Origin: Prevotella sp. UBA4341
Lineage (GTDB): Bacteria > Bacteroidota > Bacteroidia > Bacteroidales > Bacteroidaceae
DNA: 22,388 bases
Direction: 5' to 3'
Assembly (NCBI GenBank): GCA_002393705.1
Contig: DGTH01000066.1
Span: 18,986 to 41,373, forward strand
Part shown: positions 6,578 to 22,271 of the stretch, in pieces
How positions within the stretch are numbered: the first letter of the stretch is position 1
Layout of the letters: each line of letters begins with the position of its first letter
The notes under the pieces: generated by a model
The model's database searches: none
What the model was told of the DNA's origin: nothing
Seen by the model: the letters and a program-made list of their open reading frames with translations, nothing else
Program-made: the position numbers and the translations under genes

Positions 6578-6624
6578 GGGGAGACTCGGTAGGTGAAAGA
6601 AATGGACAGATTGTAAATACTAAT

Positions 6625-6740
6625 GGACCGAATGACGGTATGACGGTAGTTTCTATAGATTTCTCGCGTACGTACGCGTACGTACGCGAGAAGTCTTGAA
6701 ATTTTACTGTCATACCGTCATTCGGTCCTTCTGTTTTTTT
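6625..6740 (+). terminator. Long concentric inverted repeat followed by a T-run; possible terminator or palindromic element
   Basis: Arms 6625-6644 and 6709-6728 are perfect 20-base complements (GGACCGAATGACGGTATGAC). A second perfect palindrome of 32 bases (6661-6692) has exactly the same centre, 6676/6677. The 16-base blocks between them match at only about half the positions. Seven T residues at 6734-6740 follow on the plus strand, so the RNA could terminate transcription from the gene at 4297-6480. The stem is far longer than needed for termination, so a palindromic repeat element is an alternative. Confidence 0.5.
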
Positions 6741-8587: not shown

Positions 8588-10027
8588 ATGGCAAACATGA
8601 AAACTCTGGCCAAGGATACGGCCATCTACGGACTCTCCAGCATCGTGGGCAGGTTCCTCAACTACCTGCTCGTACCGCTCTATACCGCCAAGATGACGGC
8701 CGAGAGTGGCGGCTACGGCGTTATTACCAACATGTACGCCCTGACGGCGCTCATCATGGTGCTGCTCACCTTCGGCATGGAAACCACGTTCTTCCGCTTT
8801 GCCAACAAGGAGGACGAGAACCCGCAGAAGGTCTTCTCGACGGCACTCATCGGCGTGGCTTCGGCGGCTACGCTCTTCATTGTACTGATCTTGCTGTTCA
8901 TCGCGCCCGTCAGCGACTTCCTGGGCTACAGCGAACATCCGTCCTACGTTACGGCCATGGCCTTGACGGTGGCCATCGATGCCGTCCGGGCCATCCCCTT
9001 CGCCTATCTGCGCCAGCAGAAGAAAGCCATCAAGTTTGCCACTCTGCAGCTGCTGAACATTGCCATCAACATTGCCCTGAACCTGGTGTGCTACCTGCTG
9101 CTGGGCTTCACCGACCCGGGCTACGCGTTCTACGTGAACCTCGTCAGTTCGGCCGTCATCACGCTCTGCCTCTACCGCGAGTTCATGAACATCCGTTACG
9201 GCTTCGACCGGCAGCTCATGCGCCGCATGCTCTCCTACTCGTGGCCCATCGCCATACTGGGCGTGGCAGGCATTCTGAACCAGGTGGCCGACAAGATTCT
9301 CTTCCCCTTCGTCTATAAGGGCCAGGACATGCAGATGCAGCTCGGCATCTACGGCGCGACGGTGAAGATAGCCATGATCATGGCCATGATTACGCAGGCA
9401 TTCCGCTACGCCTACGAGCCGTTTGTCTTCGGCAAGTCGCGCGACAAGGACAACGACGAAATGCAGGTGACGGCCATGAAGTACTTCATCATCTTCACCC
9501 TGCTGGCCTTCCTCTGCGTGGTGGGCTACATCGACGTCATCAAGCACCTCATAGGCCCCGACTACTGGGTGGGTCTGCGCGTGGTGCCCATCGTCATGGC
9601 GGCTGAAATCATGATGGGCATCTATTTCAACCTCTCCTTTTGGTACAAGCTGGAGGACAAGACCTACTGGGGGGCCATCTTCTCGGGAGTGGCCTGTACG
9701 GTCATCGTCGTCATCAACGTCCTCTTCGTGCCCCGCTCCGGCTACATAGCCTGTGCGTGGGCCGGCTTTGCGGGCTACTTCACGGCCATGATGCTCAGCT
9801 ACATCGTCGGACAGATTTACCACCCCATAGCCTATACGCGCCGTTCTATCGCCATCTACGGCATCATGGCCATGCTCTTCTACATCTTCATGCACAACGG
9901 CCGCGAGCTGCTGCCCACGTGGGCCTCCATCGCCCTGAACACGGTGCTCATCCTCATCTTCGTGGCTAACGTCATGTATCACGACCTGCCAATATCAGTA
10001 TTTACCAATAAACTCAAGAAGAAATGA
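8588..10027 (+). CDS. Polysaccharide/oligosaccharide flippase (Wzx-like, MOP superfamily)
   Basis: An integral inner-membrane protein of about 479 residues with some 12-14 hydrophobic helices along its length, the size expected for the polysaccharide-biosynthesis/O-antigen flippase group of the MOP superfamily. Such proteins move lipid-linked glycan units across the cytoplasmic membrane. The N-terminal segment (KDTAIYGLSSIVGRFLNYLL) and the later FAYLRQQKKAIKFATLQLLN are typical of the family, where an early helix is followed by a basic cytoplasmic loop. The frame is open from 8576, but that ATG lies inside the predicted -7 element, so ATG 8588 (or 8597) is preferred. No glycosyltransferases are adjacent, so the substrate cannot be inferred. 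Its stop overlaps the next start (ATGA at 10024-10027), implying translational coupling with the S46 peptidase. Confidence 0.9.
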   Translation: MANMKTLAKDTAIYGLSSIVGRFLNYLLVPLYTAKMTAESGGYGVITNMYALTALIMVLLTFGMETTFFRFANKEDENPQKVFSTALIGVASAATLFIVLILLFIAPVSDFLGYSEHPSYVTAMALTVAIDAVRAIPFAYLRQQKKAIKFATLQLLNIAINIALNLVCYLLLGFTDPGYAFYVNLVSSAVITLCLYREFMNIRYGFDRQLMRRMLSYSWPIAILGVAGILNQVADKILFPFVYKGQDMQMQLGIYGATVKIAMIMAMITQAFRYAYEPFVFGKSRDKDNDEMQVTAMKYFIIFTLLAFLCVVGYIDVIKHLIGPDYWVGLRVVPIVMAAEIMMGIYFNLSFWYKLEDKTYWGAIFSGVACTVIVVINVLFVPRSGYIACAWAGFAGYFTAMMLSYIVGQIYHPIAYTRRSIAIYGIMAMLFYIFMHNGRELLPTWASIALNTVLILIFVANVMYHDLPISVFTNKLKKK

Positions 10028-12144
10028 AAAAAACGTTTTCCCTCTTACTGTTGTCCCTGCTTGCCTTTTCGCCCGTAAAGGTAAGTGCCGACGAAGGCAT
10101 GTGGACCCTCTGCGACCTGCCGCAGCCCGTCTTTGAGCAGATGCAGGCCGAAGGCTACTCGCTGCCCTACGAGTCACTCTACTCGGCCGACAATGCCGTG
10201 ATGAAGGCCGTCGTCAACTTCGGCGGCTACTGCTCGGGCGTCGTGGTCAGCCCCGACGGTCTGGTCTTTACCAACCACCATTGCGGCTTCGACTGCATAC
10301 GCCGCCACTCTACCGTAGAGCATGACTACATGCTCAACGGCTTCAACGCCAAGAGCTACGCCGAGGAGCTACCCAACGAGGACCTCTTCGTCAGCTTCAT
10401 GGTAGAGCAGAAGGACATCACCGACGAGCTGAACCGTCGGGGCATGAGCCAGCTGCCCTACGAGAAGATCAGCGACTTCGTCGATAGCCTGGAAAACGTC
10501 ATGAGCCAGGAGCTGAAGGACAAGGACCCCACGCTGCGCGTAGAAATCAAGCCCTTCTACGAGGGTAACAGGTACTACCTGACGACCTACCGCGACTTCA
10601 AGGACGTGCGCCTGGTGTTTGCCGTGCCCAAGTCGATGGGTAAGTTCGGCGGCGAGACCGACAACTGGATGTGGCCCCGGCAGACGTGCGACTTCTCCGT
10701 CTTCCGCATCTATGCCGACCCCGAGACCAACGGACCGGCCGAGTACAGCGAGAAGAACGTGCCCTACCACCCCAAGAACTGGGCTCCCGTGTCGTTGAAG
10801 GGCTACAAGCCCGGCGACTTTGCCATGACCATGGGCTATCCCGGCTCCACGAGCCGCTACCTGTCGAGCTACGGCATACTGGAGCGCTACGCCGAGAATG
10901 CCGTCAGGGCCCAGGTGCGCGGCGTGAAGCAGGACGTGATGATTAAGCACATGCGTGCCTCAGAGGCCGTACGCATCATGTACGACTCAAAATACGCCAA
11001 TTCATCGAACTACTGGAAGAACTCCATCGGCATGAACAAGTGCATTGACAGCATAGGGCTGGTCAGCCAGAAGCAGCTCTTCGAGCACAAGCTGCGCCGC
11101 TGGCAGGAGGAAAAACACTTCCCCGGACCCGACTTCGACCTGCTCAACACGTTTTACGCCAAGCGCTATCAGGCCAACCGCATGTTCACGCTCTTCTATG
11201 AGACGTTCTTTACCGACCAGCTCTCCATGCGTGCCTTTGCCAGCAGCACCGGGCGCATGGAGGTGAAAGGATCCGAGGACAAGCCCAAGAAGCAGTACAT
11301 GGAGTTCCGCGACAACACCAGCGAGTGGGACGTGGCCACCGACTGCGAAATGCTGGGAGCCCTGCTCGACAACTACCGCCGACAGGCCACCTCGGACTAT
11401 CTGCCCGAATTCTACAAGACCATCGACCAGAAGTTCTCCGGCAACTGCCAGCAGTACGCCGACTTCCTCTATAAGAACTCCGTGCTCATGCGCAGCGGAA
11501 AGCCCATCTACGTGAATCAGAAGGAATACACGCGCGACCTGGGCGTGGAGTACGGCATTGACATCTACGGCATGCTCATTCAGTTATACTCCATGATGGG
11601 CAGCGTCGATGAGAAGATTGCCGAACAGGAGAAGCTGCTCTGCGCCGCCAAGCTGCGCATGGAGCAGGACCTGCCCAACTATTCGGACGCCAACTTCACG
11701 CTGCGACTCTCTTACGGACAGGTGGGCGGCTACACCCTCGGCGGAAAACCCTCTGGCTACTACACCGAGGCACAGAGCATGGTCGATAAGATGCTGCAGG
11801 GCGAGCGTGGCTTCATCGACTACGAGGCAGAACCCATCATGAAGGAGCTGCTCTCGGCACGCGACTTCGGACCCTACACCGACGGCACGAGCGGAAAGAT
11901 GCAGCTCTGCTTCCTCAGCAACAACGACATCACCGGCGGCAACAGCGGTTCGCCCGTCTTCAACGGCCAGGGCGAGCTCATCGGGCTGGCCTTCGACGGC
12001 AACTGGGACAGCCTCTCCAGCGACATCTTCTTCGACCGCGAACTGGCCCGCACCATCAGCGTCGATATACGCTACGTCCTCTACATGATGGACCGTTGGG
12101 GCCACGCCGACCGGCTGCTGAGCGAAATCAACCCGGTTAAGTGA
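10024..12144 (+). CDS. S46-family dipeptidyl-peptidase, DPP7-like
   Basis: A secreted/periplasmic serine exopeptidase of 706 residues that removes dipeptides from the N-terminus of peptides, feeding amino-acid use in asaccharolytic and proteolytic Bacteroidetes. The signal peptide MKKTFSLLLLSLLAFSP ends before ADEGMW, the usual mature start of S46 enzymes. Chymotrypsin-like catalytic elements are clear: TNHHCGFD with His85/His86, TCDFSVFRIY with Asp223, and TGGNSGSP with Ser641. Gly659 lies 18 residues after the serine (LAFDGNW), the position that is Arg673 in the acidic-specific DPP11 of Porphyromonas gingivalis (nucleophile Ser655) and Gly in DPP7. A hydrophobic P1 preference is therefore inferred. 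The length fits the family (about 700-720). It is coupled by ATGA overlap to the flippase and followed after 31 bases by an aspartic protease in the same direction. Confidence 0.95.
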   Translation: MKKTFSLLLLSLLAFSPVKVSADEGMWTLCDLPQPVFEQMQAEGYSLPYESLYSADNAVMKAVVNFGGYCSGVVVSPDGLVFTNHHCGFDCIRRHSTVEHDYMLNGFNAKSYAEELPNEDLFVSFMVEQKDITDELNRRGMSQLPYEKISDFVDSLENVMSQELKDKDPTLRVEIKPFYEGNRYYLTTYRDFKDVRLVFAVPKSMGKFGGETDNWMWPRQTCDFSVFRIYADPETNGPAEYSEKNVPYHPKNWAPVSLKGYKPGDFAMTMGYPGSTSRYLSSYGILERYAENAVRAQVRGVKQDVMIKHMRASEAVRIMYDSKYANSSNYWKNSIGMNKCIDSIGLVSQKQLFEHKLRRWQEEKHFPGPDFDLLNTFYAKRYQANRMFTLFYETFFTDQLSMRAFASSTGRMEVKGSEDKPKKQYMEFRDNTSEWDVATDCEMLGALLDNYRRQATSDYLPEFYKTIDQKFSGNCQQYADFLYKNSVLMRSGKPIYVNQKEYTRDLGVEYGIDIYGMLIQLYSMMGSVDEKIAEQEKLLCAAKLRMEQDLPNYSDANFTLRLSYGQVGGYTLGGKPSGYYTEAQSMVDKMLQGERGFIDYEAEPIMKELLSARDFGPYTDGTSGKMQLCFLSNNDITGGNSGSPVFNGQGELIGLAFDGNWDSLSSDIFFDRELARTISVDIRYVLYMMDRWGHADRLLSEINPVK

Positions 12145-12366
12145 GGAATGAAGAGTGAAGAGTGAAGAATGAAGAATGAAGAATGAAGAATTTGCTACCG
12201 CCCTTGTTGTGCGCCGCGTGCTTTTAGTGTGCTGTCTGCTTTGGAGCGCGGCAGCAAATTCTTCATTCTTCATTCTTCATTTTTCACTCCAAAGAAATTC
12301 TTCATTCTTCATTCTTCATTCTTCACTCCAAAGAAATTCTTCATTCTTCACTCTTCACTCTTCACT
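12145..12366 (+). repeat. Signal-peptide-encoding inverted-repeat element, copy A
   Basis: The core of 80 bases (12185-12264) has 17-base terminal inverted repeats (GAAGAATTTGCTACCGC / GCGGCAGCAAATTCTTC, one mismatch). On the left are purine 7-base units (TGAAGAA/TGAAGAG, 12145-12184). On the right are complementary pyrimidine units (TTCTTCA/CTCTTCA) up to 12366, interrupted by two extra blocks ACTCCAAAGAAATTCTTC. It begins directly after the S46 stop codon. Read rightward, it supplies the ATG at 12176 and a hydrophobic segment fused to the aspartic protease. The core is the same length as copies B and C. No transposase is present and no target duplication is obvious. Confidence 0.85.
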
Positions 12367-13546
12367 TGCACAAGGTCTGCACCGCTACACGACGGGCTTT
12401 AACGTTACTTACACTCCTGCACACTCCTCTCTCCCCACTCCTCACTCCTCACTCCTCTCTCCTCTCTCCTCTAATTTCGCCGATTCCATCGACATAGAGT
12501 TTGACGATGGGCGCATTCTCCTGCCCGTAGAGATAGACGGCAGGAAGTATCGTTTCCTCTTCGACACGGGCTGTACGCAGGGCGTACTCTTTACGGGTAG
12601 CTCGGTGCCTTTTATCCGCGAGGTGGGCAATGTGGTCAGCTTCGACATCAACAACCAGCCCGACACCGTGCGCGTTGTTCAGCTGCCTGAGTTCCGCTTG
12701 GGCCACCTCTCCATCGACGGCTACCTTTGTACGGTCGTGAAGGGTAGCGCCATCCATCGGGGTTACGATGGAATCGTGGGTTTTGACCTCATCAACAAGG
12801 GCCTGGCTTGTAAGATAGACGTGGAGCACAAGCGCCTCATTCTGACTGACCGCAAGAAGCACTTTGCCCAGGAGCAGGGCTACGAGGTGAAGTACAGGCT
12901 GCAGGCTTTCGTGCCCTACGTGTGGGTGAGCCCCTTCATGCGTCACATGGACCGCGCCCTCTTCGACACGGGTTACCGACAGCTCTACACCATGAACGTG
13001 GAGAGCTTCCGCAAGCATGTATATAAGAGTAAGCAGGTGGCTGCTCAGGTGGAGGGGCGGGCCGTCGGCAGGCGCACCATCGGTGCCAACAGCGTTGAGC
13101 AGGCCGACACGGTCTTTTTCCTGGCCCTCGACCGACTGAAGTGGGACGACTTTGCCTTCCGCGACTACCATACGGTGACGCAGGCCGGCACGTCGCACAT
13201 CGGCACCGAGTTGCTGACCTACGGCAACCTCATCATCAATCCATTTAAGAAGCGGATGGTGTTCCAGCCTACCGCCACCAAGAATGACGAGCTGACCATC
13301 GGCAACGAGCAGGTACAGTTTTCGGTCATTCCCGTCGGCGGTCGTCCGGTGGTAGGCCTTGTACGCGAAGAAAGCGAGGCCTACCGCAACGGCCTGCGCC
13401 ACGCCGACACCATCATTCGCATAGACCAGCGCAACATTCCCGACGTCACCGCCATGCAGCAGTTCCCCTTCGTCAAGGGTCGCACCTACATCTTCACCGT
13501 CCGTCGCGCCGACGGCTCCGTGCATGACGTGAAGATTAAGAAATAG
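12176..13546 (+). CDS. Exported retropepsin-like aspartic protease with PDZ domain; N-terminus encoded by repeat copy A
   Basis: A 456-residue protein. Two Asp-Thr-Gly motifs, FLFDTGCTQ (130-132) and ALFDTGYRQ (264-266), with YDGIVGFDLI near 197-206, mark a single-chain aspartyl protease of the Asp_protease_2 type. Residues about 375-456 form a PDZ-like domain (VGLVREESEAYRNGL, DTIIRIDQRNI) likely to bind substrate tails. The first 65 residues derive from the repeat: basic VVRR, hydrophobic VLLVCCLLWSAAA, then repeated NSSFFILHSSLQR units; a signal peptide cleaved at AAA or at LAQ is plausible. The first Met after the repeat is residue 255, beyond the first catalytic motif, so translation must start inside the repeat. 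Residues about 82-100 come from another 7-base array. It lies 31 bases after the S46 gene and is probably co-transcribed. Confidence 0.85.
   Translation: MKNEEFATALVVRRVLLVCCLLWSAAANSSFFILHFSLQRNSSFFILHSSLQRNSSFFTLHSSLAQGLHRYTTGFNVTYTPAHSSLPTPHSSLLSPLSSNFADSIDIEFDDGRILLPVEIDGRKYRFLFDTGCTQGVLFTGSSVPFIREVGNVVSFDINNQPDTVRVVQLPEFRLGHLSIDGYLCTVVKGSAIHRGYDGIVGFDLINKGLACKIDVEHKRLILTDRKKHFAQEQGYEVKYRLQAFVPYVWVSPFMRHMDRALFDTGYRQLYTMNVESFRKHVYKSKQVAAQVEGRAVGRRTIGANSVEQADTVFFLALDRLKWDDFAFRDYHTVTQAGTSHIGTELLTYGNLIINPFKKRMVFQPTATKNDELTIGNEQVQFSVIPVGGRPVVGLVREESEAYRNGLRHADTIIRIDQRNIPDVTAMQQFPFVKGRTYIFTVRRADGSVHDVKIKK
12423..12471 (+). repeat. 7-base tandem repeat ACTCCTC inside the aspartic protease gene
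   Basis: Seven consecutive units (ACTCCTC, TCTCCCC, ACTCCTC x3, TCTCCTC x2), with a degenerate unit just upstream. In frame they encode HSSLPTPHSSLLSPL-type sequence between NVTYTPA and the start of the protease domain (DSIDIEFDDGR). The insertion sits in a linker and leaves the catalytic domain intact. Confidence 0.8.
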
Positions 13547-13556
13547 AGGTATAGTT

Positions 13557-13680
13557 CGAGGTGCGAGGTTCGAGGTACGAGGTGCGAGGTACGAGGTGCG
13601 AGGTTCGAGGTACGAGGTACGAGGTGCGTGGTGCGAGGTACGGGGTACGAGGTACGAGGTGCGAGGTACGAGGTACGTGG
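13557..13680. repeat. 7-base tandem repeat CGAGGTR filling a convergent gap
   Basis: Seventeen full units of CGAGGT(A/G/T), with occasional changes (CGTGGTG, CGGGGTA), plus a partial unit. It occupies almost the whole gap between the stop of the aspartic protease (13546) and the stop of the opposing membrane protein (13682). The same unit appears inside CapA (17503-17530) and, on the other strand, at the right edge (22345-22374). Confidence 0.85.
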
Positions 13681-13681
13681 A

Positions 13682-14287
13682 TTACTTCGCCTTCGGACAA
13701 CGCTGGCTGATGAAGTCCAGCACGAAGTGGTAGTCGTCGTTGGGCACAAAGATGCGGTTCTTGGTAATCAGTTCGTTGACCTTGATGAGGTTACGCTTCA
13801 CGACGGGCTTGATGCGCCTCACGCTGCCGAACTCCGTGCGCCACGTAGAGCTGTTGGCAGCCAGCAGGCCGGTTCCCGTCGCCGTGGCACTGCCCGCCAT
13901 GAGTCCGGCCAGTGCCGTAATAGCGCCCAAGACCTGTGACTTCCTGACCTCTTTCGGCATCTGCTGGTGGGTAATGCTCTTTTCGTCCATGATGAACAGC
14001 ACGCAGTAGCTGCCGCCGTTGATCATGGCCCAGATGTAGTAGCTGACGACTCCGATAAGATACATCAGGGCGGTGAGGCCCAGAAAGACCAGAAACAGCT
14101 GCAGCAGGTTGCTGAAGCTGGCACCCTCGCCAATCTCCAAGAGAGCCATCAGGAGAAACACAAAGCCAAACGCAACACCCAGGACCAGGAGCAGATCGCG
14201 TAGTATCTGCGTGTTCTTGTAGAGGTTCACCTCGTAGCACCAGCGGTACTTCCCGTCGGGGCAGAGGGTCACACGGTCGTTGACCAT
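13682..14287 (-). CDS. Two-helix membrane protein of unknown function
   Basis: A 201-residue protein I cannot assign to a named family. The N-terminus is cytosolic-like and has the segment LCPDGKYRWCYEVNLYKN. Hydrophobic helices lie at about 31-50 and 60-87, and a Gly/Ala-rich hydrophobic segment at 120-143. The C-terminal part (150-200: RTEFGSVRRIKPVVKRNLI, DYHFVLDFI) has alternating basic and hydrophobic residues and could be a small pleckstrin-like domain, but this is only an impression. It starts 12 bases after the uracil phosphoribosyltransferase stop and is probably in the same transcript. There is no signal peptide or catalytic motif. Confidence 0.75.
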   Translation of the reverse strand: MVNDRVTLCPDGKYRWCYEVNLYKNTQILRDLLLVLGVAFGFVFLLMALLEIGEGASFSNLLQLFLVFLGLTALMYLIGVVSYYIWAMINGGSYCVLFIMDEKSITHQQMPKEVRKSQVLGAITALAGLMAGSATATGTGLLAANSSTWRTEFGSVRRIKPVVKRNLIKVNELITKNRIFVPNDDYHFVLDFISQRCPKAK

Positions 14288-14299
14288 TGCTGTTGTGAC

Positions 14300-14989
14300 T
14301 TACTTGTCGGCAATGCGCCGGAACGCCTGAATCTTCTCGCCGTAGCAGAGATCGCCGCAGTCGCCGAAGCCCGGCACGATGTATTTCTGCTCGTTCATGC
14401 CCTCGTCGATGGAGGCACACCAGATGGTGCTGTCCTCGGGCAGGGCGTTCTTCACCACCTCAATGCCCTCAGGAGCGGCAATGACGCAGCAGACGTGGAT
14501 CTTCTTCGGCTTGCCGGCCTGCAGCAGCGAGTCGATGGCGGCAGCCAGAGAGCCGCCCGTTGCCAGCATGGGGTCAACGAGCAGCAACGTGCGCCCTTTG
14601 ACGCTGGGTGTGGCAATGTACTCGGTATGCACGCCTACCTCGGTATGCTCGCGGTTCAGGTACATGCGGTAGGCGCTGACGAAGGCATTGTCGGCCCCGT
14701 CGAAGACGTTGAGGAATCCCAGGTGGAAGGGCAGTCCGGCCCGTAGCACGGTGGCAATGACAATGTCTTCCTGCTTCAGCAGCGGAATGTCGAGCACGCC
14801 CAAGGGAGTCTTCACCGTCTTGGGCTTGTAGTCGAGGGTCTTAGAGAGCTCATAGGCCATGAACTCACCGATGCGTTCCACGTTCTGTCGGAAGGCGCGG
14901 CGGTTCTTCTGGTAGCTCTTGTCGCGGAGCTCGGCCATGAAGTGGTTGATGATGCTGTTCTGTTCTGCAAAGTTAATTACCTGTGTCAT
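14300..14989 (-). CDS. upp: Uracil phosphoribosyltransferase
   Basis: A cytosolic pyrimidine-salvage enzyme that converts uracil and PRPP to UMP and pyrophosphate; 229 residues, near the family length of about 210-220. The PRPP-binding loop is LLLVDPMLATGGS (about 135-147). The uracil-binding loop near the C-terminus is YIVPGFGDCGDLCYG (203-217), close to the canonical YIVPGLGDAGDR.FG. ERIGEFMAYELSK and VIATVLRAGLPF are also typical. The ATG at 14989 is kept because MTQVINFAEQNSIINHFMAELRD resembles the N-terminus of Bacteroides enzymes from memory. The gene lies 30 bases downstream of the exported protein gene and has no clear promoter of its own. Its link with the neighbours looks incidental. 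Confidence 0.95.
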   Translation of the reverse strand: MTQVINFAEQNSIINHFMAELRDKSYQKNRRAFRQNVERIGEFMAYELSKTLDYKPKTVKTPLGVLDIPLLKQEDIVIATVLRAGLPFHLGFLNVFDGADNAFVSAYRMYLNREHTEVGVHTEYIATPSVKGRTLLLVDPMLATGGSLAAAIDSLLQAGKPKKIHVCCVIAAPEGIEVVKNALPEDSTIWCASIDEGMNEQKYIVPGFGDCGDLCYGEKIQAFRRIADK

Positions 14990-15019
14990 ACTTTTAGGTC
15001 TTTATGTTATTGGTTTGGT

Positions 15020-16108
15020 TTAGTCTTCCACAATCTTGCGCAGCGCCTCGATGGTGTTGGCCGGTGCGGGCGGTATCTGGTGCTGGCGCTCAAACTCCAG
15101 GATGCTTTCGAAGTTCAGTTTGAGCTTGTTCTCACGCTTGCGGGCTTTCAGCTCGTCGCGCGTGCAGTAGGCACGGTCGGTGGTGAACACCTCAATCCAG
15201 AGGCGGTTGTGTATGTCCTTTTGGTGTCTTTCGCTAAACTGGTCGTAGTCATCGTGAATCTGCGACGAGATGAAGTCGCTGATGCCACACTGGTGGTCAT
15301 CGTCCATGGCATAGACCAGGTAACGGGTTGACACCACGTTCTTGCGCTTGGCCTCACGCTCTGCGCGCTTCTTCTGCTTCTTCTCCGACTGGCGGTCGTT
15401 CCAATAGAGGCGTACGAAGATCCTGTCGTCGATGGATATGCGGCGCTGGTGGTCTTGCACGTCATCGACCATGAAGCCCACGAGCGAGTCGCCGTAGAGC
15501 ACAGCCTGACGGCTGTCGGTCTCGGGGCGCAGCGAGAGCCCACTCTTTGAGGTGTTAAAGGCGATATTCTCGATACTCAGCTCGGAGTGCTGGTCTGCTT
15601 TGCTGCCTATGATGGCGTCCAGCAACCAGCGTACAAAGCCACCCATGCCGGAGCGTGAGAAGTTGCGGGTGCTGGCGCTGAGCTTCTTCTTCGGGATGTT
15701 ATACTCGTTGTCGGTCAGTCCGGCACGGTAGTAGAACAGCGTGTCGTCCTCCATGAAAAACATGCGGTAGTAGGTCTGCACGTAGATGTATTCCTTCGGC
15801 TCAACGGTAATCTCGGGCAGGTCGAAGTCACTCTCCGTGAGTGTGACGCGCCCGTCGGCGGGTAGTTCGCTGACCTTTACCACCTGCGGCTTGAAGGCCA
15901 CGTGCGTGATGGCAATGCTGCGTACGCCGCCCACGTCGGGCAGTACGCCCTGCAGGTCGGTCGTGCCTATGATGTTGCCGTTGTCGGCATTGCTGATGCT
16001 GGCATAGCTCACGGGGTTTCCGTCAGTGTCAACGGTCTGGACCTTCTGAGCCATGATGCTGACTGAAGCCACCATGGCAACTAATAGTGTTAATACTTTT
16101 CTCATCAT
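15020..16108 (-). CDS. Exported protein with carboxypeptidase-regulatory-like N-terminal domain
   Basis: About 362 residues from the chosen start. MMRKVLTLLVAMVASVSIMAQ is a clear signal peptide ending in AQ. It is followed by a short CarboxypepD_reg-like beta domain (VDTDGNPVSYASISNADNGNIIGTTDLQG), common at the start of Bacteroidetes exported and outer-membrane proteins. The remaining 270 residues are mixed alpha/beta with a highly basic patch (RQSEKKQKKRAEREAKRKN) and I do not recognise a named domain. The frame is open to 16183, but the predicted promoter (-7 at 16146-16139) lies inside that extension, so ATG 16108 or 16105 is chosen. It is likely the first gene of a unit including upp and the membrane protein. 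Confidence 0.85.
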   Translation of the reverse strand: MMRKVLTLLVAMVASVSIMAQKVQTVDTDGNPVSYASISNADNGNIIGTTDLQGVLPDVGGVRSIAITHVAFKPQVVKVSELPADGRVTLTESDFDLPEITVEPKEYIYVQTYYRMFFMEDDTLFYYRAGLTDNEYNIPKKKLSASTRNFSRSGMGGFVRWLLDAIIGSKADQHSELSIENIAFNTSKSGLSLRPETDSRQAVLYGDSLVGFMVDDVQDHQRRISIDDRIFVRLYWNDRQSEKKQKKRAEREAKRKNVVSTRYLVYAMDDDHQCGISDFISSQIHDDYDQFSERHQKDIHNRLWIEVFTTDRAYCTRDELKARKRENKLKLNFESILEFERQHQIPPAPANTIEALRKIVED

Positions 16109-16138
16109 TTTCTGTTGTCTGTTCTGTAAGTTGCTGTG

Positions 16139-16169
16139 CAAAAGTACGAACATTTTTGCTTTTGGCAAA
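16139..16169 (-). promoter_or_regulatory. Leftward promoter of the exported protein/upp unit
   Basis: On the minus strand TACTTTTG (16146-16139) is preceded by TTTG (16169-16166) at a 19-base spacing. The start near 16132 fits ATG 16108. Confidence 0.75.
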
Positions 16170-16182
16170 ATAATTCGCCACA

Positions 16183-16217
16183 TTTCGCCGTATTCTGCAA
16201 AATAGTTCGTACTTTTG
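16183..16217 (+). promoter_or_regulatory. Rightward promoter of the esterase gene
   Basis: TACTTTTG at 16210-16217, preceded by G and followed by C, is a good -7 element. The -33 is weaker (TTTCG at 16183-16187, about 22-base spacer). The start near 16224 gives a leader of about 29 bases. Confidence 0.65.
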
Positions 16218-16252
16218 CAGCTGTATAAACGAAAACTGAAACAAAGACAAAG

Positions 16253-17059
16253 ATGAAGAAACTATTAACCCTGGCCTTACTGGCCTTAGCAACAATGACA
16301 CAAGCACAACAGCGTATCGACTTGTGGCCGCAGGGCGCGCCACACCCCAGCAGTGACCAGCAAGACACAGCATTCGTAAAGGTATTCTTGGCAAATAACG
16401 AAGCGGCAGCCCCCTGCATAGTCATTTGTCCTGGGGGCGGCTATACCCACCTGGCCATGAACCACGAGGGCTACGACTGGGCACCCGTGTTCAACCACAT
16501 GGGTATCCATGTCGTAGTGCTGAAGTACCGCATGCCGCACGGCGTGAAAGAGATTCCTTTTGAAGATGCCGAGGAGGCGGTGCGCTTAGTGCGACGTCAT
16601 GCCGCCGAGTGGAACATCGACCCGCAGCGCGTGGGCATCATGGGCTCGTCGGCCGGTGGCCACCTGGCTTCAACCATTGCCACCCATAGCGTGGGCGAGG
16701 CGAAGCCTAACTTCCAGGTGCTCTTCTATCCGGTCATCACGATGGACAAGAGCTTCACGCACCGTGGCTCACACGACTTCCTCTTAGGGGCCGACGCTTC
16801 GGCAGAGCTGGAACAGCAGTACAGCAACGAGAAGCAAGTGACGCCACAGACGCCACGGGCCTTCATCGTGTTGAGCGACGACGACCATGTGGTGCCGCCG
16901 CTCAACGGCGTGAGCTACTACATAGCCTGTCACACCAGCAAGGTGCCGGCCGTGCTCCACGTCTATCCCACGGGTGACCATGGCTGGGGCTTGCGCTCCT
17001 CGTTTGCCCATCATGCTGAGATGCTGATGGAACTGAAGGCGTGGCTCAGTAAGTTGTAG
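16253..17059 (+). CDS. Exported alpha/beta-hydrolase esterase (BD-FAE / acetyl-esterase type)
   Basis: A 268-residue secreted hydrolase, likely a carbohydrate esterase removing acetyl or feruloyl groups from plant polysaccharides. Signal peptide MKKLLTLALLALATMTQAQ. The oxyanion segment is CPGGGY (59-64), the nucleophile elbow GSSAGG with Ser133, the acid in SDDDHVVP (Asp210 or 211), and the base His243 in GDHGWG. The mature start QRIDLWPQGAP resembles esterases of Bacteroidetes polysaccharide-utilisation loci (WP.GAP motif). No SusC/SusD or glycoside hydrolase is adjacent, so the substrate is not fixed. Its last 14 bases overlap the 3' end of the convergent CapA gene. Confidence 0.92.
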   Translation: MKKLLTLALLALATMTQAQQRIDLWPQGAPHPSSDQQDTAFVKVFLANNEAAAPCIVICPGGGYTHLAMNHEGYDWAPVFNHMGIHVVVLKYRMPHGVKEIPFEDAEEAVRLVRRHAAEWNIDPQRVGIMGSSAGGHLASTIATHSVGEAKPNFQVLFYPVITMDKSFTHRGSHDFLLGADASAELEQQYSNEKQVTPQTPRAFIVLSDDDHVVPPLNGVSYYIACHTSKVPAVLHVYPTGDHGWGLRSSFAHHAEMLMELKAWLSKL

Positions 17060-18056
17060 CGATATGAGGCACGCAGTGCCTGATGTCTATAGGAATCGTC
17101 TCTACCGCAACGGCGTCAGGGGCGATTTTTATTTGTACCATGCAGGCACGCGTGTTGAGGGGTTTCTCCTGGTCGAAGATGAAGTTGCCGATGCTGTAGT
17201 AGATGGGCTTGCCCTTGTACTCCTCGATGGTTTGCAGGGTGTGCGTATGGTGGCCTACGATGATGTCGGCCCCGGCGTCGATGATTCGGTGGGCTTCCTG
17301 CCGTTGCAGCGCCATCGGCTTCAGTTGGTGTTCGGCTCCCCAGTGCAGGCAGACAGTGATGTAGGCCGTGCTGTCCTTTGCCCGCAGACGCTCAATGCGC
17401 CGGCACAGCGTGTCGAGCGGTTCCTGTGACACGCTGAAGGAGTCTGGCAGGTAGGTGAAGTTCTCTAACTTGAGTCGTTGCGAAGCCAGGAGGTAGATGT
17501 TTCGAGGTACGAGGTGCGAAGTGCGTGGTACCTCGGAAAACTTATGAGCTGCAATCAGTATAGCCTCAGACGCCTCGTCCATGTTGGTGCCGGCTCCTAC
17601 GGGAACGATATGGGCTCCGAGGCAGTTCTTGTAGGTGTCGCGCAGTCCGCCCCGTCGTTGATCCACGCTGTGGTTGTTGGCCAGGTTCAGGTGGGTAATG
17701 CCGTGTCGGCGCAAGTCGTGGAGCCACTCGGGGTTGCCACGGAATACGTATTGCTTCACGGCTGGTGTGTGTATGTTGGTGGCTGGACACTCCAAGTTAC
17801 CCACCACGATGTCGCTGTGGGCAAAGATAGAGTCAATCTGTGGTGTAAAGAGGCTGTCGATGCCCTTCTGCATGATGTAGCGACGCACGCCACGGTCCAG
17901 CAGTATGTCGCCTGTCAGCGTAATGGTGGTCTGGGCCTTGATAAATGAAGAGTGAAGAGTGAAGAATGAAGAATTTGCTGCCGCGCTCCATAGAAGGCAG
18001 CACACTAAAAGCATGCGGCGCACAACAAGGGCGGTAGCAAATTCTTCATTCTTCAT
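17046..18056 (-). CDS. CapA-family metallophosphatase-like protein; N-terminus encoded by repeat copy B
   Basis: A 336-residue PGA_cap/CapA-type protein, a calcineurin-like fold linked in other bacteria to poly-gamma-glutamate capsule synthesis, though most Bacteroidetes members have no known role. Motifs: LTGDILLDRG (48-56), GNLECP (86-91), NLANNHSVD (124-132), VCLHWGAEH (235-243), GHHTHTLQ (268-275) and YSIGNFIFDQ (287-296). Residues 1-38 come from the repeat: MKNEEFATALVVRR, hydrophobic MLLVCCLLWSAAA, then NSSFFTLHSS, fused to IKAQTT. The next Met after the repeat (residue 62) lies beyond the GD motif, so the start must lie in the repeat. A second repeat family encodes VPRTSHLVPR at 177-185. 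No pgsB/C partner is present. It is the last gene of the leftward operon. Confidence 0.9.
   Translation of the reverse strand: MKNEEFATALVVRRMLLVCCLLWSAAANSSFFTLHSSFIKAQTTITLTGDILLDRGVRRYIMQKGIDSLFTPQIDSIFAHSDIVVGNLECPATNIHTPAVKQYVFRGNPEWLHDLRRHGITHLNLANNHSVDQRRGGLRDTYKNCLGAHIVPVGAGTNMDEASEAILIAAHKFSEVPRTSHLVPRNIYLLASQRLKLENFTYLPDSFSVSQEPLDTLCRRIERLRAKDSTAYITVCLHWGAEHQLKPMALQRQEAHRIIDAGADIIVGHHTHTLQTIEEYKGKPIYYSIGNFIFDQEKPLNTRACMVQIKIAPDAVAVETIPIDIRHCVPHIATTY
17503..17530 (-). repeat. 7-base CGAGGTR repeat inside the CapA coding region
   Basis: Four units (CGAGGTA, CGAGGTG, CGAAGTG, CGTGGTA) lie inside the gene and in frame encode VPRTSHLVPR. They are the same family as the array at 13557-13680. 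They fall between conserved CapA motifs, so the fold may tolerate them as a loop. Confidence 0.75.
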
Positions 18057-18106
18057 TCTTCACTCTTCATTCTTCACTCTTCACTTTTCATTCTTCATTC
18101 TTCACT
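17945..18106 (-). repeat. Signal-peptide-encoding inverted-repeat element, copy B
   Basis: The core of 80 bases (17968-18047) has 17-base inverted ends GAAGAATTTGCTGCCGC / GCGGTAGCAAATTCTTC. It is flanked by 7-base units TGAAGAR on the left and their complement on the right, the right flank being longer (to 18106). Relative to the gene it reads in the same direction as copies A and C. It fills the gap between the DUF3160 stop and the CapA domain and contains the CapA start codon (18056). By eye the core differs from copy A at only a few positions. Confidence 0.87.
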
Positions 18107-18110
18107 ATCA

Positions 18111-20537
18111 TCAGCATCCTGAGCTGTAGAAGAACGTCTCGTTGTCAGCGGGAGCTAACTCTAAGGGAACGGTGATTTCCTGCATCCATTCCGGCTCGCC
18201 GGCTCGCGGCTGCTGCTTCAGTTGCTCCTGCCACTCCTCGTCAGTCCAACGGCCTTCAGAGATGGCACGCTGGAACTCACGGTAGGAGAAGACGGCACCA
18301 CGCGTCAGGTACAGCATGCCTTCAATCTCTACTACGACGTAAATCTCGTAAGCCGGGCCTACAGCCTCGTAGAGGATGCTCTTGTCGGGAATGGGAATGT
18401 TCTTGTGGTTGGCAGTAAAGACGTCGGCCACTACGGCAATGGAGCGGTCGGCACCTTCCACGCAGTCCCATCCGTAGAGCTCGTCGTTCTCGCTCTGGCG
18501 CAGCAGATCGAGGGTGATGTACTCAAATGTAGAACCGATGATCTCTATCTGGCCATACTCTTGCTCGGTCAGTTTCTTGCCCTCCAGCTCCTTCTTGCTC
18601 ATGTTGAGCAGGAACTGAGCCTCTTCGCGCATGCGATTGCTGATGTCGGCGGTTCTCTCTGTTGCCAGGTTGTAGCGCTTCAGCACAGCCTCCGTAGCGT
18701 CGATGAGCGTAATGGCCAACTGCCAGTAGCGCACGTTAGGCTCTACATATCCCTTCACCACGGGCTCGGGCGGTCCGCCCGCACCACACTCCGCTCCTGC
18801 CGGCTGCTTGGCATAGAGAATGGCGTCGTGCTTCAGCTCGGCCCACGAGGCTAATGCCGAATTCAGGTTCTTCTTCTGCCACTGTGGCGTCTTCATGAAG
18901 TATGGCTGTGTATAGCCGCCGCTGACGGTGGGGGTGCAGAGCTCCTTCAGCGAGTTAATCCAGCGGGTGCTCACGGTCTCCTTCCAGTCTATCTCCTGCA
19001 TGCGCTTCTTCATCTCCTGCAGGGCGGGCGAGAAGCCGCTCCAGTTCTGCTGCTCCTTCAGTTCCTCAATGAGGACGCGCTCTGCGGCTGGTACGCCGAG
19101 GGCTGCCATGACGTCGAGTCCCTTCGGGCACTTACGCTGTGAGATGGGGTAGGTCTTGTAGTCCTGCATCTCCTGAAGCACCTCTGCATCGGGCATGTAG
19201 CGTTGTGGCATGAGGTTGATGACGTACTGGTAGTCGTCGTCATCCCTCGGTATGATGCGCGTCTGCTTCTTGGCCACGGCCACGGCCGCCTCACGCAGCT
19301 GCTGCATCTGCCTGCCGTTGCCGAGCAGCGTCTCGGGGGTAAAGCCCAAGCGCTTCATCTCGGCACCCAGTTGCAGGATGGTGATGTTGTCAGGAGCACC
19401 GAACAGGAACGTGATGGGCTGGTTGACGCGCTCGTAGAGGTTCTGCAGCTGCTGGCTGTTGCTGAGCGTGGAGGCCATCAGTGCTGCCGCCCCGAGTTGG
19501 TCGTTCAGCTTAATCTGGAAGGGAGCGCTCTGTAGCCACATCATGCCCCGGAAGTAACGCTTCAGTGCGTCGCTGCGGGTGTAGTGGCCACGGGGCTTGA
19601 AGAGCGAGTAGGGGAACATGTGTTCCGTGTAGTCGAGGAATTGCGACGAGTTATCCACGGCGCTGTTGATGTTCTCCACCTCCTGCTGTGCCATGGCTTT
19701 CCACTCGGCATCCACGGCGGGCAGCGGCTGGTTGTTGAGCACGGCCAGTGCCACGGCATAGAAGGCTGCATTGTAGCAGGCGGCCTGCTTCAGCACGTTG
19801 TTGCTCGTGGTCTTGGCCACACGGTTCATCTCGTCGTACATCTTCTTCGAGAACTCCTGCATGACGGGCAGCAGCGTCTTCTCTTCTACCTCGCGGGTCA
19901 GACAGTCAAAGTACATGTGGAAAGCCTGCAGGTAGAGGTCGGTAGTCACGAAGTTGGGGAAGTCGTGGTAGTCGTTCATCTCGTAGATGTGGAAGAGCTG
20001 TTCCTTCCTCTGGGGCACGATGGCAAAGCCGTTGCGTCCCAACATGTCCTCCAGGCGCGGGTCCATGTTCTCCACCTGGTAGGGATTAATCAGGTTGTCC
20101 GTGTTGACGATGTGTCCGCCGGGGGCTGTGAAGTTCTGCGTCAGCAGTTCCTTCTCGCGTGTCTGTATGCGCTTGATGAAGGCAGCCTCGGCCGGCGTGT
20201 ATTTCAGCTGGAGCTGCTGGCCACGCGTCTCTTCCTTTTCCCAGCGGTCCATCATCAGACTATCGTACCACGTCGTGCCATTGAAGACGTCGCGCAGCTC
20301 GGCACTGGTGAAGGCAAACCCCTGTCGGGCGGCGAAGGCGTTACGCAGTACGCGCAGTTCGCTGAGTGAGAGCTTCGAGATGTCCATGTTGGTGTCGATG
20401 TGGTAGCGCATCGTCTCTAAGTTCAGCTGTCCGCGCCCCGGCAGTATGGGGTTGCGGTTGCCGAAGAATTCTTCTTCCTGCGCCTGAATGCTCATGGCAG
20501 TCAGGAGCACAATCATGGTGACAAAGATTTTTTTCAT
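18111..20537 (-). CDS. Exported YARHG-DUF3160 protein
   Basis: An 808-residue secreted protein. Signal peptide MKKIFVTMIVLLTAMSIQAQ. Residues about 58-92 (LSELRVLRNAFAARQGFAF...WY) match the YARHG domain, an extracellular module of unknown function. The long remainder (about 180-760) looks like DUF3160, with FPNFVTTDLYLQAFHMYFD near the start, largely helical and rich in Trp and Tyr. No catalytic motif is known for DUF3160. The C-terminus ends FFYSSGC. It starts 12 bases downstream of the small VCBS-like gene and is followed by CapA in the same direction. Its normal Bacteroidetes signal peptide contrasts with the repeat-derived N-termini of the genes on both sides. Confidence 0.88.
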   Translation of the reverse strand: MKKIFVTMIVLLTAMSIQAQEEEFFGNRNPILPGRGQLNLETMRYHIDTNMDISKLSLSELRVLRNAFAARQGFAFTSAELRDVFNGTTWYDSLMMDRWEKEETRGQQLQLKYTPAEAAFIKRIQTREKELLTQNFTAPGGHIVNTDNLINPYQVENMDPRLEDMLGRNGFAIVPQRKEQLFHIYEMNDYHDFPNFVTTDLYLQAFHMYFDCLTREVEEKTLLPVMQEFSKKMYDEMNRVAKTTSNNVLKQAACYNAAFYAVALAVLNNQPLPAVDAEWKAMAQQEVENINSAVDNSSQFLDYTEHMFPYSLFKPRGHYTRSDALKRYFRGMMWLQSAPFQIKLNDQLGAAALMASTLSNSQQLQNLYERVNQPITFLFGAPDNITILQLGAEMKRLGFTPETLLGNGRQMQQLREAAVAVAKKQTRIIPRDDDDYQYVINLMPQRYMPDAEVLQEMQDYKTYPISQRKCPKGLDVMAALGVPAAERVLIEELKEQQNWSGFSPALQEMKKRMQEIDWKETVSTRWINSLKELCTPTVSGGYTQPYFMKTPQWQKKNLNSALASWAELKHDAILYAKQPAGAECGAGGPPEPVVKGYVEPNVRYWQLAITLIDATEAVLKRYNLATERTADISNRMREEAQFLLNMSKKELEGKKLTEQEYGQIEIIGSTFEYITLDLLRQSENDELYGWDCVEGADRSIAVVADVFTANHKNIPIPDKSILYEAVGPAYEIYVVVEIEGMLYLTRGAVFSYREFQRAISEGRWTDEEWQEQLKQQPRAGEPEWMQEITVPLELAPADNETFFYSSGC

Positions 20538-20549
20538 ATAGCCAAGTAT

Positions 20550-21104
20550 TTAGTTAGTATTAAAAGTTCTTTCAGCTGTCGTGCGGTCGGTGGCCTTCTC
20601 AAGGAAGCGCAGGAACCGGAGACCGAAGCCGCTCCATTCGTATTCTGCCACAGACCAGAGCCCGTTCGCGGAGGTCTCTAAACTGCGCACCCGGCCGTCG
20701 ATGAAGCGGAAGTCCTGCAGGTCACCGCCCAGTTTGGAACCCATCCAGAGCGGTCTGACGTGACCACGGTAGTTCTTGAAGATGAACAGCCGGCGGCCAT
20801 AGGGAAAGTAGCGAGTGGCTTTCTCTACACCCACCAAGGCATCGGTACTCCCGTCGCCATTGACGTCGCCCGTGGTGAACTGATAGACAGGGTAGGGCAG
20901 TCGCCATCGGCTCAGCGTGGAGTCGGTCTTCAGCACCAGTGCGTGCAGCGTGTCGTTCTGCTGCTCCATGCTAAAGGTCTGGGCCTTTATGAGTGAAGAG
21001 TGAAGAATGAAGAGCGAAGAATTTGCTGCCGCGCTCCATAGAAGGCAGCACACTAAAAGCATGCGGCGCACAACAAGGGCGGTAGCAAATTCTTCACTCT
21101 TCAC
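20550..21104 (-). CDS. Small exported VCBS/FG-GAP-like protein; N-terminus encoded by repeat copy C
   Basis: A 184-residue protein. FTTGDVNGDGSTDALVGVEKA (about 79-99) is a single calcium-binding-like DxNxDG loop of the VCBS/FG-GAP type; the rest (YFPYGRRLFIFKNYRG, LQDFRFIDGRVRSLETS) looks like further beta-propeller-like strands. The partner is unknown. Residues 1-38 are repeat-derived (KSEEFATALVVRRM, LLVCCLLWSAAANSS, LFILHSSL) and join IKAQTF, a typical signal-peptide end. The in-frame start is GTG at 21104; the ATG at 21111 is out of frame. Alternatives are the ATG inside the core (residue 15) or Met48, which would give no signal peptide. The gene follows the thioredoxin-fold lipoprotein by 15 bases. 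Confidence 0.78.
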   Translation of the reverse strand: MKSEEFATALVVRRMLLVCCLLWSAAANSSLFILHSSLIKAQTFSMEQQNDTLHALVLKTDSTLSRWRLPYPVYQFTTGDVNGDGSTDALVGVEKATRYFPYGRRLFIFKNYRGHVRPLWMGSKLGGDLQDFRFIDGRVRSLETSANGLWSVAEYEWSGFGLRFLRFLEKATDRTTAERTFNTN

Positions 21105-21119
21105 TCTTCATTCTTCACT
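20991..21119 (-). repeat. Signal-peptide-encoding inverted-repeat element, copy C
   Basis: The 80-base core (21016-21095) appears identical to copy B over the inner region, with the same 17-base ends. It is flanked by three to four 7-base units on each side (one with C for T, GAAGAGC). It begins directly at the stop codon of the upstream gene (21120-21122) and runs into IKAQ of the downstream protein. It contains the GTG start at 21104. Confidence 0.87.
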
Positions 21120-22271
21120 CTACAGCAGCTTTCGGATTTCTGCTTCCAAGTCGTCAATGGTAGCCATGCGCTTCACGAGGTTGTTCTCGCGGTCAATGAG
21201 GAAGTAGTCGGGCAGACTGGGAATGTTGTAAGTCAGTAGCAGCTGTGAGTTCAGACCTTGAGGGTCACGCACGCAGACCCATGGCAGGGCGGCCGTCTGC
21301 TGCTTCCAGAAGTGCTCGTCACCGTCGGCTGCCACCTGGTAAATCTCGAAGCCCTGAGCGCTGAACTTATCGTACAACTCGCGCATGGCAATGATGCGTT
21401 TGGGCGACTCCTCAAGGGCAAAGAGGTGGAAGTCGAGCAGGACCACCTTACCCTTCAGCTCCGAGAGCTTGCGCGTGCGCCCCTTGTTGTCGGCGAGCGT
21501 AATGTCGATGATGCCTGATGTCTGCACCTGCGAGGCATCGATGGTCTGCTGGTTGTTGTACTGCACGATGCGGTCGTTCTTCATGCCGTTGATGGCAATG
21601 TTGTGCAGGTTCTTCGTGCGCATGGCGTCGGGGTAGTTGGCGTCCCAGCTGGTGGCCACGGCGGCAAAGGCCTTGATGTCCTCGTGGTTGGTCTGCGGGT
21701 CAAAGATGAGCAGTCCGCCGACGGTCTGGAACAGGGCAAAGTAGGCATAAGCCTTGTCGGGTGCGCTGAAGATGTAGTTACGCTTCACGTCGTCCTTGTA
21801 GGCCTGAATCATGTGCATCAGTGAGTCGTGTCCCAGCGTGCCGGGGAGCGCGTTGCTAACCTCGAAACACCGTTGCTGTAGTGCTATCTGCTTCAGTGCC
21901 AGTTCCTTGATCTTCGTGCAATTCTCTGAGCCGCTTACCTCGTACTGCGTAATCATGGTGGGGTAGGCGGCCTTTATGTTGACCGTCTCCGTTGAGTCGA
22001 TGCTGATGTTGATGATTTGGTCGCTGATGCGCAAGCGGTAGAACTCGGGCGACAGGCCTGGCTCGCTCTTGAAGGAGAAAGAGCCGTCGGCCCCTAACTT
22101 GACGGAATCCACTTTCGTGATTTCTTCCAGGCCGATGTTCTCAAAGTAGAGCATCGAGTCCTGGGCTTCGCTGATGGTTCCTTCTACGTTAAACTTATTC
22201 TGGTTGCAGGCTGCAACGCTCAGAGCCATGAGTGCTGCGGCCCCTACTTTTCCTATCTTCTGAATGTTCAT
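21120..22271 (-). CDS. DUF4369/thioredoxin-fold (TlpA-like) lipoprotein lacking CxxC
   Basis: A 383-residue lipoprotein with signal peptide and lipobox LSVAAC (Cys22). Residues about 28-110 resemble DUF4369 (FNVEGTISEAQDSMLYFENIG). Residues about 255-383 have an AhpC/TSA-thioredoxin fold (KLSELKGKVVLLDF, then YNIPSLPDYFLID with the cis-Pro loop). At the active-site position, where TlpA/ResA proteins have WCxPC, the sequence is HLFALEESP, so no redox cysteines are present. A binding or structural role rather than disulfide reduction is inferred. It is the first gene of the leftward operon and has a good promoter. Confidence 0.9.
   Translation of the reverse strand: MNIQKIGKVGAAALMALSVAACNQNKFNVEGTISEAQDSMLYFENIGLEEITKVDSVKLGADGSFSFKSEPGLSPEFYRLRISDQIINISIDSTETVNIKAAYPTMITQYEVSGSENCTKIKELALKQIALQQRCFEVSNALPGTLGHDSLMHMIQAYKDDVKRNYIFSAPDKAYAYFALFQTVGGLLIFDPQTNHEDIKAFAAVATSWDANYPDAMRTKNLHNIAINGMKNDRIVQYNNQQTIDASQVQTSGIIDITLADNKGRTRKLSELKGKVVLLDFHLFALEESPKRIIAMRELYDKFSAQGFEIYQVAADGDEHFWKQQTAALPWVCVRDPQGLNSQLLLTYNIPSLPDYFLIDRENNLVKRMATIDDLEAEIRKLL

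Follow-up and report, generated by a model that had tools for sequence, protein, structure and literature searches.

The window, a stretch of 22,388 nucleotides from Prevotella sp. UBA4341 (contig DGTH01000066.1, positions 18,986 to 41,373), contains three copies of a repeat element, each of which lies between the stop codon of one gene and the next gene on the same strand. Every copy consists of an 80-bp core within an inverted pair of 7-mer arrays, of which (GAATGAA/GAGTGAA)n faces the upstream gene and (TTCATTC/TTCACTC)n the downstream gene. The cores of copies 2 and 3 are identical, and the core of copy 1 differs from both at 4 of 80 bases. The features of the three loci, including the open reading frames (ORFs) joined to the copies, are as follows in window coordinates.

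10024..12144, plus strand: S46 peptidase gene (PF10459), upstream of copy 1
12145..12184, plus strand: copy 1 left array, (GAATGAA/GAGTGAA)n, directly after the S46 peptidase stop codon, with stops and ATG or GTG in every frame
12185..12264, plus strand: copy 1 core, with inverted ends GAAGAATTTGCTACCGC and GCGGCAGCAAATTCTTC and an interior coding for LVVRRVLLVCCLLWSAAA
12265..12366, plus strand: copy 1 right array, (TTCATTC/TTCACTC)n, part of it a 39-bp in-frame triplication; all frames are open, with FFILHSS-type heptads until LAQG
12176..13546, plus strand: aspartic protease ORF of 456 amino acids (PF13650), with its start and predicted signal peptide from copy 1
17046..18056, minus strand: CapA-like ORF of 336 amino acids (PGA_cap, PF09587), with a cassette-derived N-terminus
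17943..17967, minus strand: copy 2 right array, leading into the native CapA c-region IKAQT
17968..18047, minus strand: copy 2 core, coding for ALVVRRMLLVCCLLWSAAANS
18048..18110, minus strand: copy 2 left array, adjoining the DUF3160 stop codon (18111-18113)
18111..20537, minus strand: DUF3160 gene, upstream of copy 2, with its own ordinary-looking signal peptide MKKIFVTMIVLLTAMSIQAQ
20550..21104, minus strand: VCBS-like ORF of 184 amino acids, with a GTG start inside the array and a cassette-derived N-terminus
20991..21015, minus strand: copy 3 right array, leading into the native c-region IKAQTF
21016..21095, minus strand: copy 3 core, of the same sequence as the copy 2 core
21096..21119, minus strand: copy 3 left array, reaching the stop codon of the TlpA-like gene (21120)
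21120..22271, minus strand: AhpC/TSA, DUF4369 (TlpA-like) gene, upstream of copy 3

Starts and reading frames at the three copies

All three upstream genes (S46 peptidase, DUF3160 and TlpA-like) end at the array, and each joined ORF opens inside the left array and continues through the core into the gene. The resulting N-termini read M/V-K-N/S-EEFATALVVRR[M/V]LLVCCLLWSAAANSS, followed by heptad-coded residues and then by the gene's own IKAQT or LAQG. An earlier note on this DNA had described three near-identical 80-bp cores between an upstream stop and an exported-type gene, joined in frame; the coordinates and ORFs bear this out, and the core-encoded peptides that it described agree with the translated ORFs. 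It had also stated that the protease and CapA have no usable start past the repeat. In the protease, no ATG, GTG or TTG lies ahead of the Asp-protease domain, and in CapA the first ATG after the element (17873) comes behind the motif TGDILLDRG, so that the statement holds for both. The third, VCBS-like ORF has a later ATG at 20969, and initiation in the repeat is therefore not forced for it. As for the protein labels, those of the aspartic protease (Asp_protease_2) and CapA (PGA_cap) were supported by Pfam, and the third protein matched no Pfam family.

The possibility that the frames are mis-annotated or decayed, with the true starts elsewhere and the genes being pseudogenes, would be favored by the mechanical calling of gene starts and by the later ATG of the third ORF. 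However, the frames are long and open with recognizable domains (CapA and protease), orthologues and alleles carry the same fusion, and no native start remains in those two genes, all of which makes this explanation very improbable. Repeat-driven misjoining in a draft metagenome genome is hardly credible as a source of the fusions: although the source assembly is 62% complete, comprises 194 contigs and contains repeats that can misassemble, fusions of CapA, protease and phosphatase occur in other assemblies too (eight proteins, one of which is the window's own), and fusions on other genes occur in a single-contig genome (G345).

A GAATGAA array gives RMKNEE-stop repeats in all three frames, and its complementary strand gives FILHSSF in all three frames. 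Because 7 and 3 share no factor, a stop followed by ATG or GTG is present in every frame upstream and an open tail (FFILHSS) in every frame downstream. An inverted array pair thus supplies a stop, a restart and an open tail in any frame and either orientation, and therefore any gene can be joined in frame. The core read in reverse is also open in one frame but hydrophilic, with a best 12-residue hydropathy of -0.64 to -0.86 as against 2.35 to 2.54 in the forward direction. The earlier argument that the right strand and frame in three cases out of three would be unlikely by chance consequently fails, since the arrays read alike in all frames and the reversed core is open too. The coincidence of frame and strand provides no evidence and was rejected as such, given that the arrays favor no frame and that copies which disrupted genes would be lost to selection.

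Heptamer stretches of other types lie in and near the same genes. A GAGGTAC-type stretch is in frame within the mature region of CapA (window 17501-17535; VPRTSHLVPR), where the alleles P0001, P0003 and P0004 differ from the window. A CACTCCT array (window 12417-12471) codes for PAHSSLPTPHSSLLSPLSS in the protease just past the conserved AQGLHRY; the PAHSSLPTPHSSLLSPLSS stretch is absent from the N-termini of the 29 protease orthologues read and is shorter in protein P0005. A GAGGTRC array (window 13554-13693) lies between the protease and the next gene.

Architecture and distribution of the repeat family

The full 80-bp core occurs three times in the source genome assembly, at 62% completeness, and gave no full-length match in 119 other genomes of the Prevotella-like genus, for each of which up to 7 candidate places were scored, and it was therefore rejected as the dispersed unit. 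Instead of the 80-base core for which the earlier note had suggested a search, the dispersed unit is formed by paired ends and heptamer arrays with variable interiors, in the order (GAATGAA)n, AATTTGCTRCCGC, variable interior, GCGGYAGCAAATT, (TTCATTC)n. With up to two mismatches, GAATGAAGAATTTGC matched 42 places in the source genome, compared with 7 for the reversed control, and the end motif GAAGAATTTGCTRCCGC was present in 45 of 120 genomes of the genus, in all of which the reversed control was absent. The ends often pair as inverted repeats around short, mutually different interiors.

A search of named genomes by the paired-end pattern gave 85 stretches, of which 80 were listed, and the listed matches carry the titles Prevotella, Prevotellaceae, Bacteroidaceae or Bacteroidales, together with three titled "uncultured bacterium" and one Fibrella rubiginis. 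Among the 82 paired matches at these 80 loci, heptamers accepted by the pattern flank both sides in 77; one of the remaining five is cut by the locus end, and four, including the Fibrella copy, have other or irregular flanks. The commonest interior is 22 bases long (30 of 82). Only 1 of 395 genomes sampled from the phylum matched the pattern, in a sample that contains few members of the genus and with a gap limit of 44 that also misses the window copies. A profile built from 10 cassette peptides (A1) matched 6 of 301 genomes sampled from the family, in 4 of 30 genera, at E 1e-6, which indicates limited spread. The copy in Fibrella rubiginis, which is far from Prevotella, has the same inner motif within a different inverted heptamer pair (GATGAAT type; L318:5286-5328), and the sole match of the phylum sample (G1053) has the same core as Fibrella rubiginis and a second paired copy.

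The positions of the copies relative to genes were read by hand in a catalogue of 78 exact end matches in six genomes (18, 20, 16, 10, 7 and 7 sites in G000, G034, G080, G041, G022 and G105, respectively, those of G034 being only places among the matches listed). Thirteen sites lie in frame inside genes, five form N-terminal signal-peptide fusions, on the three window genes, SprA and an exo/endonuclease, and the other 60 are intergenic, flanking or otherwise placed. The description of the repeat as a dispersed secretion-signal cassette is thus apt for a hydrophobic subfamily, considered below, and does not extend to the repeat family as a whole, with N-terminal signal-peptide fusions at 5 of 78 sites. 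All four internal copies compared with solved homologues add residues at the element, in frame inside unrelated, otherwise conserved proteins: 15 in CTP synthase, about 30 in Xaa-Pro aminopeptidase, 17 in RNase R and 13 in ArgRS. Heptamer arrays of any sequence were also sampled, in 400 kb of G345 at even steps and 171,680 bases of the source genome; with overlapping stretches counted apart, 39 period-7 stretches were found, comprising 21 intergenic, 9 in frame ahead of the first start, 6 inside genes and 3 close to the N-terminus. One of these last three was read as a signal peptide, so that few signal-peptide cases came from this sample. A P-type ATPase contains a half-element in frame, with a hydrophobic stretch on either side (L199:802-2952), and other heptamer families are in frame inside genes at L401:19478-19513 and L403:1595-1669.

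This distribution would suit purely selfish or neutral repeats that land everywhere, with gene-breaking copies lost and signal peptides just tolerating hydrophobic heptads, so that neither a cassette nor an exchange system would exist. Most catalogued copies are intergenic or flanking, the 13 in-frame internal copies include those in ArgRS, RNase R, CTP synthase and Xaa-Pro aminopeptidase, and one strand of the arrays can be read through in any frame. Nevertheless, neutral repeats are regarded as an unlikely explanation of the whole, because a like interior peptide recurs on unrelated exported-type genes, replaces the native signal and spans species with a synonymous excess, and because the interiors are polar in the 9 other in-frame copies examined.

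Cassettes in place of native signal peptides

At E 1e-3, profile A1 matched 152 of 398 genus genomes; the strongest matches are full length and in long open frames, and the weaker ones are often partial or contain stops. A cassette of this kind is fused to 11 exported-looking gene families, named by Pfam where possible, namely RlpA-like/DPBB, SprA, exo/endonuclease, TonB receptor, histidine phosphatase, pectinesterase, aspartic protease, CapA, VCBS-like (no Pfam), TPR and two-component sensor, the export of which we infer from family identity and the N-termini. The interior of this subfamily codes for a basic, a hydrophobic and then a small-residue stretch (RR-xLLxCCxLLW-SAAA-N), and where the cassette stops, the c-region of the gene itself follows, often xAQ. 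Judged by a loose rule of composition, Sec-type features (basic n-region, hydrophobic core and small residues at -3/-1) are present in all 33 N-terminal cassettes. Their median best 12-residue hydropathy is 2.57, compared with 0.70 for a set of 9 other in-frame copies made up of RecQ and 8 of the 13 internal sites in the catalogue, a contrast that is partly by construction because the cassettes were mostly found with a hydrophobic profile. In RecQ (G215), a cytosolic case, the interior of the element is polar. The interiors in RlpA of G061 and G144 have no ATG, GTG or TTG before the hydrophobic core, and the start must therefore come from the array or from farther upstream. As far as the sequences go, the 11 families across genus genomes thus support the earlier proposal that unrelated exported genes obtain their start codon and signal peptide from the repeat.

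Comparison with orthologues, which the earlier note had suggested, indicates that the cassette stands where a native signal would be. The best orthologues from 120 genomes, 29 of CapA and 29 of the protease, have other N-termini, which by eye are mostly plain signal peptides; the window CapA and protease have therefore lost their native start and hydrophobic stretch. Homology among the proteases begins near AQ-x-HRY, and the window protease retains AQGLHRY and no native start. Fusions at the same genes recur in other genomes: the G206 orthologue of the VCBS-like gene carries the same cassette at the same junction, and the proteases of G181 and G179 carry a cassette at the same junction as in the window. 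In a search of 5.8 billion proteins, all five CapA proteins at 88% identity or more, including the window's own, have the cassette, with array lengths that vary; one CapA record at this level (P0007) begins at its inner Met. Over ten hand-chosen same-gene pairs of cassettes, 84.5 of 186 changes are synonymous as against 29% expected (nominal p 1.4e-6), and second codon positions are the least changed (34 of 186). Three further pairs, from different genes, were computed and stand outside this count.

Based on these comparisons, we consider it likely that the repeats form a palindromic, protein-compatible family of rumen-type Prevotella, in which a hydrophobic subfamily replaces the start and signal-peptide core of exported-looking genes. 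Two inverted arms, each consisting of a heptamer array and AATTTGCTRCCGC, form one element around a variable interior. The sequences show that the upstream arm provides a stop and then ATG or GTG in every frame and the downstream arm an open, fairly hydrophobic tail, and by comparison the cassette subfamily stands where the 11 families would otherwise have their native start and signal-peptide core. Initiation may occur inside the element, probably aided by the upstream ribosome terminating alongside, and the product could then be exported via Sec. Shine-Dalgarno sites are little used by Bacteroidota. Finally, cassettes, arms or interiors may be exchanged between genes by recombination or by template switching between arrays; template switching is a known route to perfect palindromes.

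Arm turnover, hairpins and related repeats

Several comparisons bear on exchange. The CapA proteins P0025 and P0026, with 98.6% identity across 279 residues of the mature part, have unrelated signal peptides, and P0026 and P0032 (96.4%) have the interior type in common with different arms. In a quick tree of 70 CapA proteins, at least 8 changes between cassette and other N-termini were counted over the 46 judged, with labels set by hand and 24 rows with short N-termini left out. The DUF3160-CapA junction has four different inverted heptamer pairs in four genomes, of GAATGAA (window), GAAATGA (G206), AAGTGAC (G179) and GTTTGAA (G181) types, where the upstream gene was checked in G206 by alignment and recognized in G179 and G181 by its final codons. 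In the G179 protease, an interior of the same type sits between two AAGTGAC arms. Of 30 RlpA loci, 9 have a cassette by hand reading, and an inverted pair precedes the mature region in 19, with period-7 arms in 13 of these, a share that is biased upward because the 30 are the best of 130 matching genomes by likeness to a cassette-bearing query. The CapA and protease loci speak against a general rule: none of 29 CapA loci (first 120 genomes) and 2 of 32 protease loci had period-7 inverted pairs, in a test that scanned 230 bases upstream and thereby missed the window's own protease copy, so that such pairs are a feature of some lineages. It may tentatively be proposed, with rather more doubt than assent, that the signal peptides of this Prevotella lineage are exchangeable cassettes, for which the inverted 7-mer arrays flanking the start and signal peptide serve as handles for recombination in any frame, with the mature proteins remaining almost unchanged. 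If so, this would be a modular renewal system for secretion signals, through which genes and strains exchange entire signal peptides; we know of no earlier description of such a system.

The same junctions could be read in terms of a hairpin. The mRNA around the CapA start has a very stable predicted hairpin (-84.5 kcal/mol, z -7.5), in which the array start codon lies mostly in the stem and which may be either a translation control or a cost. The selected feature could accordingly be an RNA or DNA hairpin that, for example, couples or throttles the translation of exported proteins, with signal-peptide coding being secondary. Besides the strength of this fold, arm complementarity is retained at the DUF3160-CapA junction despite wholly different heptamer sequences in the four genomes, and the inverted pairs at the RlpA loci described above would fit as well. 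However, the correction of quasi-palindromes by template switching would likewise maintain complementary arms, protein P0046 has kept the peptide with arms that look eroded, and many copies lie away from starts; a hairpin as the selected feature is therefore judged improbable.

Returning to the replacement of native signals by a hydrophobic subfamily, a number of observations weigh against it. In the wider family signal peptides are a minority, 60 of the 78 sites being intergenic, flanking or otherwise placed and 13 internal, and profile A1 was derived from hydrophobic cassettes, so that its matches favor the hydrophobic form. The ten pairs were chosen by hand, include the arms and partly share branches, and there is little or no synonymous excess in three of them (exonuclease G034/G141, 6.3 of 21; RlpA G392/G297, 8.5 of 27; RlpA G103/G104, 12 of 33). 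Two species with a cassette on one and the same gene may also have gained it separately, and the predicted CapA hairpin might hinder initiation at the array start codon. Regarding mobilization, 34 of 45 carriers contain the transposase family Y1_Tnp, a larger share than among the other genomes (38 of 75; p 0.008), but it was not found in the source genome, at 62% completeness, nor in 10 other carriers. Neither a target-site duplication nor an enzyme was found, no empty-site DNA comparison having been made and a parent element having been sought only as Y1_Tnp.

Among known repeats, the Rickettsia palindromic elements (RPEs) are closest in kind, judged by descriptions rather than by sequence; the portions of the reports consulted describe short palindromic repeats in frame inside unrelated protein genes, conserved ones included (PMC2229807, PMC10969869). 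In-frame copies inside housekeeping enzymes are common to both, and the Prevotella element is likewise a multi-copy short inverted-repeat element. In contrast to RPEs, it belongs to another phylum, its arms are heptamer arrays readable in any frame, and one subfamily replaces the start codon and signal peptide rather than sitting inside the protein. It also has terminal inverted repeats, a trait of miniature inverted-repeat transposable elements (MITEs). The MITE-like enterobacterial repeats RU-1, RU-2 and RU-3 are, as far as the consulted part of their description goes, likewise small repeats with open frames, and RU-2 forms part of the predicted signal peptide of YPO1552 (PMC2759123), so that a mobile repeat making a signal peptide has a precedent. 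From what that part of the source gives, RU-2 makes part of one signal, whereas the Prevotella cassette type is used by many identified gene families and reappears on a given gene in different species.

Repetitive extragenic palindromic (REP) repeats and REPINs, with their RAYT transposases, have paired inverted ends, a short variable middle, many copies and a GTAG tag. The Prevotella element too has paired inverted ends, a short variable middle and many copies. REP repeats tagged GTAG and CGTC appear in the parts of the reports consulted (PMC3116915, PMC3733652). Unlike these, the Prevotella element has no constant GTAG/CGTC tag, and its end motif varies (GCGGYAGC / GCTRCCGC). The heptanucleotide short tandemly repeated repetitive (STRR) sequences of cyanobacteria are 7-bp tandem arrays between genes. 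By description, not sequence, the Prevotella arrays resemble them as 7-bp intergenic tandem arrays, but form inverted pairs around starts and code for signal-peptide cores.

No account of this element was recognized in the open-access literature searched. What looks new is its scale, the fact that known native signals have been lost, its return in one species after another and the inverted arrays that fit any frame. A repeat that can be joined to any gene in any frame, with its own start and secretion signal, would offer a direct route from selfish DNA to exported proteins. With the evidence widened from three genes in one draft genome to 11 families, cross-species recurrence and wholly different signal peptides on CapA proteins with 98.6% identical mature parts, the origin and replacement of signal peptides become testable, and gene starts in such genomes may be misannotated.

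Two other repeats lie elsewhere in the window. A 9-base tandem array of ATAGTTGCT type is located immediately past a stop codon (2799-2875), and a long inverted repeat follows an ORF (6615-6738), with two 62-nucleotide arms that are 81% complementary and adjoin each other with no spacer.

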